The notes under the pieces: generated by a model | The model's database searches: none | The model's input: the letters and a program-made list of their open reading frames with translations, nothing else | What the model was told of the DNA's origin: nothing | Part shown: one piece after another, positions 4,639-8,776 of the stretch | How positions within the stretch are numbered: the stretch's first letter is position 1 | Layout of the letters: every line of letters begins with the position of its first letter | DNA from: Candidatus Thorarchaeota archaeon | GTDB lineage: Archaea > Asgardarchaeota > Thorarchaeia > Thorarchaeales > Thorarchaeaceae | NCBI GenBank assembly: GCA_016839345.1 | Contig: JAEOUL010000038.1 | Coordinates: 1 to 8,776, forward strand | Length of the DNA: 8,776 nucleotides | Reading direction: 5' to 3' | Translations under genes and position numbers: made by a program

Positions 4639-5121
4639 TCAACCAAGTGTCTTACGAATTTCGAGGACCTTTTTGACTGACCAATCAACATATTCCTCAC
4701 ATAACTTCTCAGGAAGACCTAGTGGTCTCTGTGAACCGACGGGTGGAAGTTTTCCTTCATCCATCTCTACCAAATGCCGACATCTTACAGATCCCCAGCT
4801 ATCAATAAAAGCCTGCATATACTGCTTCACAATCTCTCGAGCATTAGTACGCTTTTCTTTGAATTCCTCAATGTTTTCACTACCGTCTGTACCAAGTATG
4901 AGTCCCAGACTAAGAACTGCACCACTGACTGCTCCGCAAACTTCTCCAAAACCGCTAATTCCACCGCCCAAGATAGAAGCCATCCGCATACATGGTTGTG
5001 AAAAACCTGGGAGAGCAGAGTCTCTATCAATTCCTATTATTGTACTCTCAGCGCAGTTGAATGAACGCCCATTGTTTTCTTCCATTCTGATTGCCCAGTC
5101 TGCGCGGTGCAAATGACCCAT
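4639..5121 (-). CDS. C_GCAxxG_C_C family probable redox protein
   Basis: Small protein of the C_GCAxxG_C_C family (TIGR01909/PF09719), thought to be redox active because of four conserved cysteines; its biochemical role is not established. From ATG 5121 it has 160 residues, near the usual 140-160. The cysteines are Cys23 (SFNCAES), Cys62 in the CGAVSG motif (62-67) preceded by the Gly-rich stretch ILGGGISGFGEV (50-61), Cys114 (WGSVRCRHL, 109-117) and Cys141 (KLCEEY). Cys44 is extra. The frame is open upstream to a possible start at 5250, but that would overlap the divergent gene at 5204 and add about 43 residues that lie ahead of the usual family start. ATG 5085 is another candidate. It is co-directional with sufCB, 96 nt upstream, suggesting a shared sulfur or Fe-S context. 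Confidence 0.86.
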   Translation of the reverse strand: MGHLHRADWAIRMEENNGRSFNCAESTIIGIDRDSALPGFSQPCMRMASILGGGISGFGEVCGAVSGAVLSLGLILGTDGSENIEEFKEKRTNAREIVKQYMQAFIDSWGSVRCRHLVEMDEGKLPPVGSQRPLGLPEKLCEEYVDWSVKKVLEIRKTLG

Positions 5122-5203
5122 AGAAAAACATTCGTGTGGTATTGAAGATATTCTATCATCAAGCTTAAAACGTAGAGTCGTATGTCGAACATGGGGAATA
5201 TCA
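5122..5203. promoter_or_regulatory. Divergent promoter between redox protein and rubrerythrin-like gene
   Basis: This 82-base gap separates two genes that point away from each other. On the plus strand CTTAAAAC (5163-5170) lies about 38 nt before the TTG start at 5204 and could serve as TATA, putting transcription near 5193. On the minus strand TAGAATAT (about 5147-5154) lies about 30 nt before ATG 5121, predicting a nearly leaderless transcript. The boxes are nearly back to back, so one regulator could act on both genes. Box assignment is by eye. Confidence 0.35.
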
Positions 5204-5674
5204 TTGACTGAAGTCCAACAAACTTTCGAGAGATTAGTCTCCCTCGCCATTCAGAGAGAGGAGGAAGCGTACGACTTTTACATGAAAGCCGCTGATGAAT
5301 CAAAATTCAAGTCATCTACTAAATTACTCCATGAGTTGGCAAAGCAAGAAGTAACTCATAAGGAGAAGTTAATGGCGGCTCTTGATGAAGGAGTTTGTGA
5401 TACATTCACATGCGATACTGTAGAGGAAATTGAGAAATTGGATTTAAGCCAGTATCTCGTCGACATTCCACTAGGTGCAGATTCTACTCCTCAAGATGTA
5501 CTCATTGTTGCAATCAAAAAAGAGGCTGCTGCAAATAGCTTCTACAAGGCTTTGTCAGAACTTACTGGAAGCGGAGTCCATAGATCGGTCTTCGAAACTC
5601 TTGCTGCTGAAGAAGAAATTCACAAGACTCGCTTACAGAACATGTACGACGATATCTTCCAGCCAGATATGTAA
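5204..5674 (+). CDS. Rubrerythrin/ferritin-like di-iron protein
   Basis: Four-helix-bundle di-iron protein of 156 residues, probably a cytosolic peroxide-scavenging or electron-transfer protein. The first half has REEEAYDFYMKAA (18-30), giving Glu20 or Glu19, and KQEVTHKEKL (47-56), giving Glu49-xx-His52. The second half repeats the pattern with IKKEAAANSFYKAL (104-117), giving Glu107, and AEEEIHKTRL (135-144), giving Glu137-xx-His140. The two halves look like an internal duplication, as in rubrerythrins and symerythrins. There is no C-terminal rubredoxin domain with its CxxC pairs, so an outside electron donor would be needed. Cys65 and Cys70 occur in the connecting loop. No ATG or GTG is available; TTG 5204 is the only plausible start upstream of helix 1, with GGGGA at 5193-5197 as a possible ribosome site. 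Its location opposite the Fe-S genes fits oxidative-stress defence. Confidence 0.85.
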   Translation: MTEVQQTFERLVSLAIQREEEAYDFYMKAADESKFKSSTKLLHELAKQEVTHKEKLMAALDEGVCDTFTCDTVEEIEKLDLSQYLVDIPLGADSTPQDVLIVAIKKEAAANSFYKALSELTGSGVHRSVFETLAAEEEIHKTRLQNMYDDIFQPDM

Positions 5675-5720: not shown

Positions 5721-7016
5721 CTAGTTCTTGTGCAGTTTAGGTGCTGCTAGGAAGGTCAGACCACGCTTAGTGAGTTCCTCGGCAGTTCTATTCAACGAGT
5801 GATGCTTATCTAAGTAATTGGCAAGATGAAAGGGCATGTGCCCTGCTTTAATTATATCATCTTTCTCTCGGAAGTAGTCGAGGATATCACTTGGATATTC
5901 ACGAGTTTCTTCAATAGAGGGGACTCCACCTTCATGTTTTGCACTGATGTTCTTTACGTGATCAGCAAGATCCAACAACTCTGGAAGTCTATCATAAGGT
6001 TGGCGAACAATGTGTTTGTACGTTTCTGTAATATGATGCTCAATTCGCACAACTTCTTCAAATCCAAAGTTGCCGCGTATGTAAGCTGCTTGTTCGATGG
6101 TCTCGTTATTTACTGCATTTGAGAGGTTAAATCCGATGAGCGGACTTGTTCCATCATCTCGACTGAACAGCTTTGCTGTCATTAAGGTCCAGAGACAAGC
6201 ATAGGGATTATCATTACCCATGAACACTGATATTTTGAATTCCATGTCAATTCCTAGTTTGTGCATCATATATCCAACAAGAACACTTCCAGGATTGATA
6301 TTGAGTACTTGTTTAACACCATACTTGGTATAATAATTCAAAAACTCATCAGCCCACTTCAACGGGAATTCATTCGGCATACCGACTCCACCGAAGTATC
6401 CAGTTATTGTGTCTGGTCCCCCAAGGTGAACATTCACCGGAGCTCCATCTGGACCAGGGTAGGTCCCCTTTGTATCCAGAGTTTCAACATATGTTGACCC
6501 TGTAATCTGCATTCCGGCCGCAAAAGCAACCACATCATTGTCTTCGGTTTGCTCGGCCATTTTTCGAACACGGATGAATCGGCCAGGCATAAGTTCCTCT
6601 TTCTCTATAGATTGTTTAGCTTCGGTAATGAGCCACGGGAAATATTGGCAAGCACTAATCTCCAATGTAATTGCGAAACTGTCATCGAAATTCATCGATA
6701 GTGCCTTATCACCAAGTATCTTCTTTCGGTAATCAGGGACAGAGATGAAAGCATCATTGTCTCTTTGATCTTGCAACCATTCAAGGTCTTTGATGTAGGG
6801 AGAGTTCTTTGCATCGAGTTTGGCTAGGAGATTATCGAGCTTTCGAGCTTCCTTTGCCTTCTTGTTAATCTCTTCTACTCCCCCATACTTGTCAATAACA
6901 TCAAGCAGGTTTGTGATAAGAGGGTTGTTCTCGCTGAGGAGAAAATCATTAATCTCCTTCAGCCGATTTTCATTTATTCTGAGTTTTTGCCTGTCAGTCA
7001 TTAGTAGGCCGTCCAT
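5721..7016 (-). CDS. Uncharacterised 431-residue protein, probable soluble enzyme
   Basis: I do not recognise this family. The protein is 431 residues with no signal peptide or membrane segment, so it is probably cytosolic. Residues 8-70 are charged and helical, possibly a short coiled coil (KLRINENRLKEI, EEINKKAKEARKLDNLLAKL). The rest looks like an ordered alpha/beta enzyme with Gly- and His-rich turns: HLGGPDTITGYFGGVGMPNEFP (197-218), VLNINPGSVLVGYM (237-250), FMGNDNPYACLW (265-276), GFNLSNAVNNETIEQA (295-310), RIEHHITETYKHI (324-336), HEGGVP (361-366) and GHMPFH (392-397). The alternating strand/helix rhythm from about 160 to 330 would suit a TIM-barrel-like fold, and the His/Asp/Glu residues could bind metal; both are inference. 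ATG 7001 (MTDRQKL) is an alternative start. The upstream co-directional gene encodes an ECF S component, so a link to a vitamin or cofactor is possible but unproven. Confidence 0.82.
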   Translation of the reverse strand: MDGLLMTDRQKLRINENRLKEINDFLLSENNPLITNLLDVIDKYGGVEEINKKAKEARKLDNLLAKLDAKNSPYIKDLEWLQDQRDNDAFISVPDYRKKILGDKALSMNFDDSFAITLEISACQYFPWLITEAKQSIEKEELMPGRFIRVRKMAEQTEDNDVVAFAAGMQITGSTYVETLDTKGTYPGPDGAPVNVHLGGPDTITGYFGGVGMPNEFPLKWADEFLNYYTKYGVKQVLNINPGSVLVGYMMHKLGIDMEFKISVFMGNDNPYACLWTLMTAKLFSRDDGTSPLIGFNLSNAVNNETIEQAAYIRGNFGFEEVVRIEHHITETYKHIVRQPYDRLPELLDLADHVKNISAKHEGGVPSIEETREYPSDILDYFREKDDIIKAGHMPFHLANYLDKHHSLNRTAEELTKRGLTFLAAPKLHKN

Positions 7017-7160: not shown

Positions 7161-7742
7161 TCAACTGGTTTTTAGTTCCTCATATGGTTTACCAGATTCA
7201 ATATCGCGAAAGTTGATTGTCCTTAGATAAGTGCGAATTGTGGGACCTACTAGGAGCGCAACGAGAGAGCCAGCTACAACTTGACCTAGATTAACAACCA
7301 CTAATTCTGCTAATGCTGCTCCAAAGCCCCATAGAATAATTTCACCAACCAAGTATCCTACCAACATTACGAATGAACCAATGATGACACCAACAATATC
7401 CCATTTACTCATACGAATAACACCCATTGTCCTAGCACCGAAGAAACCAACAGCCATGCCTTCAAATCCCTTTACAACAAGTGTGATTGGAGCGTAAATT
7501 GGGGCAACTATCATGTCAGCAAGAGCAGATCCAACTCCACCTACAATAAAACCTCCAATAGGTCCAAGAATTAGTCCACCAAGCATTACAATTGTATCAC
7601 CGAGATTGAAGTAGCCATTAGTAACAGGATATGGAATGGTCAGAACCAAAGTTGTAATAGTGGCAAGTGCTGTAAAGATAGCTAACAATGCAATGTTGAT
7701 TGCAGAATTTTTTCCAGCTGGGCGAAAGTACTCCATTTCCAT
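7161..7742 (-). CDS. ECF transporter S component (vitamin/precursor-binding membrane protein)
   Basis: Integral membrane substrate-binding subunit of an energy-coupling-factor transporter. It has 193 residues from ATG 7742, normal for the family. Hydrophobic segments lie at about 13-37, 47-64, 62-77, 78-103, 114-140 and 146-169, giving about six helices. The run NGYFNLGDTIVMLGGLILGP (positions 42-61) followed by GGVGSALADM is characteristic of the HmpT/PF07155-like S components, which take up thiamin precursors, riboflavin and similar small vitamins. The substrate cannot be fixed from sequence. No EcfA ATPase or EcfT is in the window, so it probably shares a module encoded elsewhere. GTG 7751 would add three residues; GTGA at 7751-7748 ahead of ATG 7742 favours the ATG. 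Divergent from the threonine synthase-like gene. Confidence 0.85.
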   Translation of the reverse strand: MEMEYFRPAGKNSAINIALLAIFTALATITTLVLTIPYPVTNGYFNLGDTIVMLGGLILGPIGGFIVGGVGSALADMIVAPIYAPITLVVKGFEGMAVGFFGARTMGVIRMSKWDIVGVIIGSFVMLVGYLVGEIILWGFGAALAELVVVNLGQVVAGSLVALLVGPTIRTYLRTINFRDIESGKPYEELKTS

Positions 7743-7775
7743 GATATTCACACGCGGCTGGTCGAATGAGAGAGG

Positions 7776-7800
7776 ATATATAACTTTGAGCCTATATATA
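7776..7800. promoter_or_regulatory. Compact bidirectional promoter with two TATA-like boxes
   Basis: ATATATAA (7776-7783), preceded by the purine-rich GAGAGAGG, is about 34 nt before ATG 7814 and suits a plus-strand start near 7806, giving an almost leaderless mRNA. TATATATA (7793-7800) reads the same on both strands and would place a minus-strand start near 7770, about 28 nt before ATG 7742. The minus reading of the first box (TTATATAT) could instead start transcription near GTG 7751. The intergenic region is only 71 bases, so the two preinitiation complexes would overlap. Confidence 0.5.
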
Positions 7801-7813
7801 GGCGCGAATGTGA

Positions 7814-8776
7814 ATGAGTCTCATATCTTCATACAGGTGTACAAGATGCGGTAAGCAAATCCCATATGATTTGAGAGAGAGAGTCTGTCCTGAGTGTGGT
7901 AGTTTTCTTGAGATTATGTATGACTTGCCAGCTGTTAGCAAACGTATCACAAAAAACTCACTGAAGAAGAGAGACCCTGGTATCTGGAGATACGCCGAGC
8001 TGTTACCTGTTGCAGCTTCATCAAGTGTCATTTCTCTAGGAGAAGGGGGAACATACCTTCACCGGTGCGATAGATTAGCTAAACGTTACAACTTAAGGTC
8101 GCTGTATCTAAAGGATGAAACCACAAACCCGACTGGATCATTCATCGATAGAGGCACAGCGGTTGAAGTCACTGTAGCAAAACAGCAGGGTTTTCGCTCT
8201 TTGTGTTGTGGATCTACAGGTAACCTTGCAGCATCTCTTGTAGCTTATGCAGCACGTGCTGGAATGAAGTGCAATGTCTTCATTGCGCAAACTGGGAATG
8301 TGGATTCCGGAAAATTCTATCAGATACTTGCATACGGTGCTAATGTTACTGTAGTCAAGAACCATGAGATTGCTTTAGAGAGGGCCAATGCTGAAGGCGC
8401 TCATAGTTATGTTGTTGATGCGTATAGCTCTTCATTCCTCGAAGGAGTAAAAACTACAATCTTCGAGATATGTGAACAATTGATGTGGAGTACTCCCGAT
8501 TGGATTGTCATACCAATGGGAAATGGAGGACATCTCTCTATGGTCTGGAAAGGATTGAAGGAGCTACAAGAGATTGGAGTTTTAGATAAAATTGAAACAA
8601 AAATAATCGGAGTTCAATCGACAGGTTGTGCACCTATTGTAGATGCATTTGCAAGTGGGACAGAAGATATCACTCCGACTGCAGGGGGAGCTACTATTGC
8701 TTTGGATATAGGGGTCAGTAATCCATCATGTGGACATACAGCGCTCAGGGCAATTCGAGAATCAGGAGGGTTGGCG
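7814..8776 (+). CDS. Threonine synthase-family protein lacking the PLP lysine (3' end beyond window)
   Basis: Partial: 321 codons, open to the window edge. Threonine synthase (ThrC) converts O-phosphohomoserine to threonine using pyridoxal phosphate. The protein starts with a zinc ribbon (Cys9, Cys12, Cys25, Cys28) as in many archaeal members. It then has SLGEGGTYL (74-82), LYLKDETTNPTGSF (97-110), CGSTGNLAASLVAYAARAG (132-150), SGKFYQILAYGA (165-176), the phosphate-binding loop PMGNGGHLSMVWKG (234-247) and NPSCGHTALRAIRESGG (303-319). The family motif TGSFKDRG, whose Lys forms the Schiff base with PLP, is TGSFIDRG here: Ile111, codon ATC. Two base changes separate ATC from either Lys codon, so a single read error does not explain it. 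TGA at 7811-7813 closes the frame just before ATG 7814, fixing the start. It could be a divergent paralog with another reaction or a regulatory pseudoenzyme, so I give no thrC symbol. Confidence 0.88.
   Translation, partial: MSLISSYRCTRCGKQIPYDLRERVCPECGSFLEIMYDLPAVSKRITKNSLKKRDPGIWRYAELLPVAASSSVISLGEGGTYLHRCDRLAKRYNLRSLYLKDETTNPTGSFIDRGTAVEVTVAKQQGFRSLCCGSTGNLAASLVAYAARAGMKCNVFIAQTGNVDSGKFYQILAYGANVTVVKNHEIALERANAEGAHSYVVDAYSSSFLEGVKTTIFEICEQLMWSTPDWIVIPMGNGGHLSMVWKGLKELQEIGVLDKIETKIIGVQSTGCAPIVDAFASGTEDITPTAGGATIALDIGVSNPSCGHTALRAIRESGGLA

Follow-up and report, generated by a model that had tools for sequence, protein, structure and literature searches.

The last open reading frame of an 8,776-nucleotide stretch of Candidatus Thorarchaeota archaeon DNA (GenBank assembly GCA_016839345.1, contig JAEOUL010000038.1; hereafter the window) encodes a protein of the threonine synthase (ThrC) family in which isoleucine stands in place of the lysine that holds pyridoxal 5'-phosphate (PLP). 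The interpretation that we favour, with a probability of roughly two in three, is that this protein is a lysine-less, fold-type II PLP sensor and a repressor of vitamin B6 genes that evolved from threonine synthase. Its predicted partners in the window are a divergently transcribed gene for the S component of an energy-coupling factor (ECF) transporter and an inverted repeat in the promoter region between the two genes (Table 1).

From the computed loss of the residue, the domain fusion in relatives, the gene neighbours and the motif we infer a one-component regulator composed of a threonine synthase PLP domain and a C-terminal PadR-type winged helix. With the Schiff-base lysine lost no synthesis of threonine would be expected, and with most of the PLP pocket kept its signal would most likely be PLP, another phosphorylated B6 vitamer or an adduct of PLP with an amino acid, bound reversibly. 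A dimer is expected to occupy the inverted repeat TATATARS-N6-SYTATATA, which covers TATA-like sequences of the divergent promoter, and in this way to repress the regulator gene as well as the divergent vitamin B6 gene (the ECF S component here, pdxS-pdxT in other members) when PLP is plentiful. Repression rather than activation is proposed because the operator arms resemble archaeal TATA boxes, which the bound regulator would cover. A further possibility is that the signal combines PLP with an amino acid in the form of an external aldimine.

Table 1. Features of the window that bear on the proposed regulator
Feature	Position	Strand	Basis
Predicted ThrC-HTH (helix-turn-helix) regulator, ThrC-like fold-type II PLP domain (zinc ribbon and most of the PALP domain)	7814..8776	+	profile matches, relatives
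ATC (Ile111) at the codon position of the PLP Schiff-base Lys	8144..8146	+	sequence, alignments
Putative operator TATATAAC-TTTGAG-CCTATATA, inverted repeat with 8-bp arms and a 6-bp gap, then TAGG	7777..7798		sequence
ECF transporter S component, PF07155 (PdxU/HmpT family), predicted vitamin B6 uptake protein and target	7161..7751	-	profile, structure match, divergent to ThrC-HTH

Lysine loss and winged-helix fusion

The open reading frame, 321 codons long and still open at the window end, contains LKDETTNPTGSFIDRG. The lysine of NPTGSFKDRG, which we take to be the PLP Schiff-base lysine as established for this family, aligns with the window isoleucine in the solved threonine synthases 2zsj, 6cgq, 2d1f and 1uim. 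The family sequence and the fold that mark an active threonine synthase are present in the window protein and the Schiff-base lysine is absent. The original prediction, made from the letters alone, had recognised this isoleucine, and the alignment on four solved enzymes confirms it. It was equally right that ATC differs at two positions from either lysine codon and that the landmarks of the family are intact, since the zinc ribbon (C9, C12, C25 and C28), LGEG, STGN and GNGG are all present. The interval it gave, 8135-8158, does encode GSFIDRGT, but the whole of NPTGSFIDRG occupies 8126-8155. The C-terminal winged helix past the window end, the divergent ECF S gene and the operator-like site were not part of that reading.

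A protein search returned 7517 relatives, of which the best 120 were examined; 104 of these are 480-520 amino acids long and are referred to as the full-length set. The lysine position is occupied by isoleucine (92) or leucine (12) in every full-length relative, and D112 and R113 are kept in all 104. The ratio of nonsynonymous to synonymous substitution rates (dN/dS) of the window gene against L001, L002 and L089 was 0.07-0.08, with dS near saturation. Because the substitution is clade-wide and dN/dS is low, the gene is neither decayed nor misread; this bears out the earlier view that it had not decayed and answers the proposal to look for a clade sharing the isoleucine.

No new fixed lysine was found in the PLP domain when the 104 full-length relatives were aligned with the four lysine-bearing enzymes. 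The PLP-domain lysines conserved in at least 94% of the relatives (K100, K167, K213, K246 and K380) also stand in 2zsj, 6cgq, 2d1f and 1uim, except for a methionine at 246 in 1uim. A replacement Schiff-base lysine was rejected on the ground that the conserved lysines are shared with ordinary lysine-bearing enzymes, and the suggestion of a fold-type II enzyme employing another residue finds no new conserved lysine to rest on.

The pocket itself is largely preserved. N137, G236, G238 and T375, presumably PLP contacts, are kept in 104/104 close relatives, and a PLP-independent enzyme is for this reason not favoured. The arginine of RLEGQKT, which we assume to contact the substrate phosphate, is replaced by phenylalanine (103) or tyrosine (1) in the same set; this loss weighs little, as arginine is found in only 13 of 21 HTH-less, lysine-bearing ThrC controls and may not define the family. 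Of the earlier suggestion that the product is a PLP-independent or non-catalytic, perhaps regulatory paralog, the non-catalytic and regulatory part is probably correct, and independence of PLP is doubtful.

The PadR-type winged helix (PF03551) accompanies PF00291 in 116 of the best 120 relatives, and those without it are four short proteins (P0010, P0019, P0021 and P0042). In P0001, which is 89% identical to the window part, PF00291 scored 223.1 bits and PF03551 43.6 bits (cut-off 27). The winged-helix part of the window gene would, judging by these relatives, lie past the end of the window.

Vitamin B6 neighbours and the putative operator

The distribution of fused loci was surveyed in 227 genomes of the phylum of L001, taken as Asgard on the strength of the Thorarchaeota record of L001. 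A contig search with one protein as query gave 2 loci, and an alignment query would have reached further. A profile of 34 relatives matched 175/227 genomes at E 1e-60 or better, a count that takes in HTH-less ThrC, and a profile of 33 fused proteins matched 95 genomes at 1e-110, some HTH-less ThrC among them. For each of 83 genomes one fused locus was taken. In 82 of them the match extends into the HTH; the remaining one, G211, has its gene divided between two contigs. G095, truncated by a contig end, was excluded, and fused genes with weaker matches may have escaped the survey. At the lysine position these 83 loci have isoleucine in 20, leucine in 18, asparagine, threonine, valine and serine in one each, lysine in 31 and arginine in 10.

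In the flanking DNA retrieved, a PF07155-type S gene accompanies the fused gene in 66 of the 83 loci, pdxS and pdxT in 9, and neither in 8, all of the latter being Arg-type. By gene neighbourhood, 75/83 fused loci thus adjoin genes of B6 uptake or PLP synthesis, as against none of 20 HTH-less ThrC control loci (21 genes, all with lysine). Less than 260 bp separates the fused gene from the S gene in all but eight loci, which have gaps of 573-2067 bp. Neighbours were called with profiles built from the loci themselves, and Pfam scans of representatives identified them as PF07155, PF01680 and PF01174. The S gene of L103 precedes genes for an ECF ATPase and a CbiQ-type protein.

The S protein of the window matches PF07155 with 102.5 bits (cut-off 26.7). 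According to the accessible part of PMC9997740, PdxU and PdxU2/HmpT, both PF07155, are among only three characterised B6 transporters, the substrate being verified for PdxU2/HmpT and not for PdxU, and the accessible part of PMC4860826 gives pyridoxamine as an HmpT substrate. Among solved structures, 4hzu chain S (E 1.5e-11) is the only relative of the window S protein within E 0.01, and the HmpT residues E41, H84, Q87, Y120, N140 and Q143, as listed in that part of PMC4860826, are all present in it. The window protein is identical at Y120, N140 and Q143 and has Asp for E41, Lys for H84 and Glu for Q87. The window S component is predicted to transport vitamin B6.

The genomic distribution of pdxS is consistent with this substrate. 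The gene occurs in 36/227 genomes, in 0/66 of those with an S-gene neighbour versus 36/161 of the others (Fisher p 1.5e-6) or 22/144 of those without a fetched fused locus (p 1.7e-4), and PF07155 occurs in 164/227, in 9/36 genomes with pdxS versus 155/191 without (p 1e-10); all these p-values are too optimistic, as related and possibly incomplete genomes were treated as independent. Another link between PF07155 and B6 is seen on G005 contig C242:5131-6586, where pdxS and a PF07155 S gene have same-strand matches separated by about 430 bp.

The two divergent genes are separated by 62 bp (7752-7813) that contain the inverted repeat, and none of 200 shuffles of the window yielded a match. Loci were scored for TATATAGG-N6-CCTATATA within 220 bp upstream with a threshold of 13/16 positions, two loci with short upstream DNA being dropped. 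A match of at least 13/16 was found in all 33 divergent non-Lys S-gene loci, the window included, in 1/8 divergent pdxST loci and in the single locus with pdxST downstream. It was found in 0/20 controls, in 0/8 Arg-type loci without a B6 neighbour, and neither in the other Arg-type locus nor in the Ser-type locus. First-order Markov re-samples of the 33 upstream regions reached 13/16 in 0.3%. An exact TATATARS-N6-SYTATATA occurs once in each of 25/34 genomes and stands before a ThrC-HTH gene at 24 of the 25 sites; none of the 34 contains the reversed form. Since these same loci supplied the pattern, what is informative is that it is lacking elsewhere in the genomes. The sole exact match away from a ThrC-HTH gene (L201, G198 contig C11:109-130) precedes, near a contig end, an open reading frame of 310 amino acids that by eye resembles a DUF89 protein.

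Most pdxST loci carry a related arrangement, TATACAAG-N6-CTTGTATA, spaced as in the operator. Its exact form occurs once in 6/9 genomes searched, always at the fused locus; with up to 2 mismatches it was not commoner than its reversed control. Upstream of many Lys-type ThrC-HTH genes (L060, L132, L133, L148, L149 and others) stands a palindrome, TTTACGAT-N2-ATCGTAAA. No match of at least 14/16 was found near the S gene in Lys-type loci, and weaker matches (12-13) lie about 450 bp or less before the S gene in L129, L139, L142, L143 and L148, the background being 7 matches of 12 in 126 kb (20 control loci). Some of the palindromes adjoin genes resembling zinc transporters by eye. On account of the few weak S-gene matches and these neighbours, the palindrome was not assigned as the operator of the Lys-type regulator.

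Elsewhere in the window, a 431-amino-acid protein encoded next to the S gene (5721-7016, minus strand) has no Pfam or NCBIfam match and belongs to a cluster (cluster 3) with 18 members among the compared loci, the window included. The longest open reading frames of a C_GCAxxG_C_C protein (4639-5250, minus strand) and a rubrerythrin-like protein (5204-5674, plus strand) overlap head to head by 47 bp, and one of the two starts is probably further in.

Weighing the regulator against other explanations

A number of observations count against a B6 repressor as described here. Lys-type fused proteins make up 31/83 loci, and their genes are convergent to the S gene (30) or upstream of it (1), with 0/30 scored Lys-type loci reaching 13/16 in the 220 bp upstream. 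Arginine replaces the lysine in 10/83 loci, 8 of which are without a B6 neighbour. The exact operator is missing from 9/34 genomes, that of G198 stands elsewhere, and with TATA-like arms part of the operator conservation may be promoter sequence. The PadR domain is outside the window. N137 is Asp in 4 of the 33 loci that form the divergent group (non-Lys S-gene and Ser-type), and the counts for this residue and for the RLEGQKT arginine in the controls weaken two of the arguments. Two of the six HmpT residues are changed in all S proteins aligned (H84 to Lys and Q87 to Glu in 37/37). Finally, the surveyed genomes may be incomplete and are not independent.

Since Lys-type fused proteins also stand beside S genes, the gene association does not depend on loss of the lysine, and the poor fit of the Lys and Arg types limits the proposed mechanism to the window's clade and its pdxST-linked relatives. 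A promoter shared by every fused protein was rejected, given that in 30/31 Lys-type loci the fused gene and the S gene converge. The tree that was drawn is unrooted, comes from a quick search, employs 10 of the 31 Lys-type loci and retains column 111. Seven of the ten Arg-type loci (L046, L048, L049, L050, L051, L053 and L058) lie near genes for a GINS-like protein and MCM.

The alternative that survives best, though we consider it unlikely, keeps the protein as regulator of the divergent transporter and gives it a signal other than PLP, either threonine or a related amino acid or a different vitamin; the pocket would then be a relic of the substrate site. This reading would agree with the descent of the PLP domain from threonine synthase, and it gains from the S component substrate being a prediction and from PF07155 being named for riboflavin transport. 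Nine fused loci, however, adjoin pdxS and pdxT instead, pdxS and PF07155 seldom co-occur (9/36 pdxS genomes versus 155/191 others), and the four assumed PLP contacts are invariant in the full-length set; the phenylalanine or tyrosine at the RLEGQKT arginine points the same way with little weight.

Far less probable is a lysine-less enzyme that is still catalytic through another base or a bound cofactor adduct, with the winged helix as a protein-contact domain. The intact fold and the strong purifying selection would be expected of an enzyme, but no replacement lysine is conserved, and the promoter site and the B6 neighbours are those of a regulator. Moreover, a lysine-bearing ThrC coexists in both genomes checked: those of L001 and L002 (Candidatus Thorarchaeota) also carry lysine-bearing, HTH-less ThrC genes (L005, L006 and L007), so that the second thrC anticipated by the original prediction is found in 2/2 related genomes. 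In the set of ThrC loci compared, lysine is present wherever the match stops before the HTH; the one exception, L043, is a fused gene truncated by a contig end. We attach a similarly low probability to a PLP storage or delivery protein, rather than a transcription factor, encoded beside B6 genes; the neighbourhood and the largely preserved pocket would suit it, whereas the above-threshold PF03551 match of P0001 and the nearly unique inverted repeat of the shared promoter would not. A sequencing error or a decaying gene, for which no supporting point was found, is dismissed as extremely improbable by the isoleucine or leucine common to 104/104 relatives and the dN/dS of about 0.07.

Relation to known regulators and to annotated threonine synthases

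The B6 repressor favoured here has a bacterial parallel. In the accessible parts of PMC9997740 and PMC5320631, PdxR, a regulator of the MocR type, controls PLP synthesis genes such as pdxST, and PdxR-type members of the bacterial MocR/GabR family are likewise transcription factors that join a PLP-enzyme fold to a winged helix. MocR proteins combine a GntR winged helix with a fold-type I aminotransferase-like domain, whereas the window family is of fold-type II, carries a C-terminal PadR-type helix, is without the lysine and is archaeal. PF00291 in the window protein and PF03551 in P0001 were matched, with no GntR or aminotransferase-like Pfam match. According to the accessible part of PMC5320631, Archaea lack the MocR subfamily. 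Enzyme-derived, PLP-binding regulators are hence already known from bacterial MocR, and it is the fold, the domain order, the lost lysine and the archaeal setting that differ. The winged helix itself belongs to the same family (PF03551) as PadR, a small stand-alone regulator, and is fused to a PLP domain in P0001. No description of a ThrC-winged helix fusion was found in the titles and abstract openings of the literature searched, preprints and most subscription papers lying outside its reach, nor in the accessible parts of PMC11237513 and PMC1274311.

P0001 scores over the cut-offs of TIGR00260 (204.3 versus 167.1) and NF006050 (308.7 versus 303), so automatic annotation would name it threonine synthase. 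The window family differs from ThrC (TIGR00260, PF00291) in the missing Schiff-base lysine, the additional winged helix and the B6 neighbourhood. A further NCBIfam model named threonine synthase, NF004170/PRK05638 (442 positions), is matched nearly over its full length, C-terminal part included, by P0001 and by L049; the Arg-type L049 passes its cut-off of 421 (455.9) and P0001 stays below it (287.5). Arginine stands at the lysine position in 120/120 of the relatives listed for L049 (P0121-P0240), and those entries with organism names include Bathyarchaeia, annotated threonine synthase.

We give a somewhat better than even chance to the broader proposal of an archaeal family of PLP-sensing regulators, a fold-type II counterpart of PdxR, in which threonine synthase acquired a winged helix by fusion and the window's clade in addition lost its lysine, so that a cofactor once covalently held became a ligand bound reversibly. 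Such a family may include many proteins that databases list as threonine synthases. A count of threonine synthases should leave out the lysine-less ThrC-HTH proteins, even though P0001 passes TIGR00260. To our knowledge no archaeal regulator of vitamin B6 has been known, and the ThrC-HTH family is a candidate for one, with a defined putative DNA site and target genes. It further suggests a route by which a PLP enzyme may become a sensor, namely loss of the residue that holds the cofactor.
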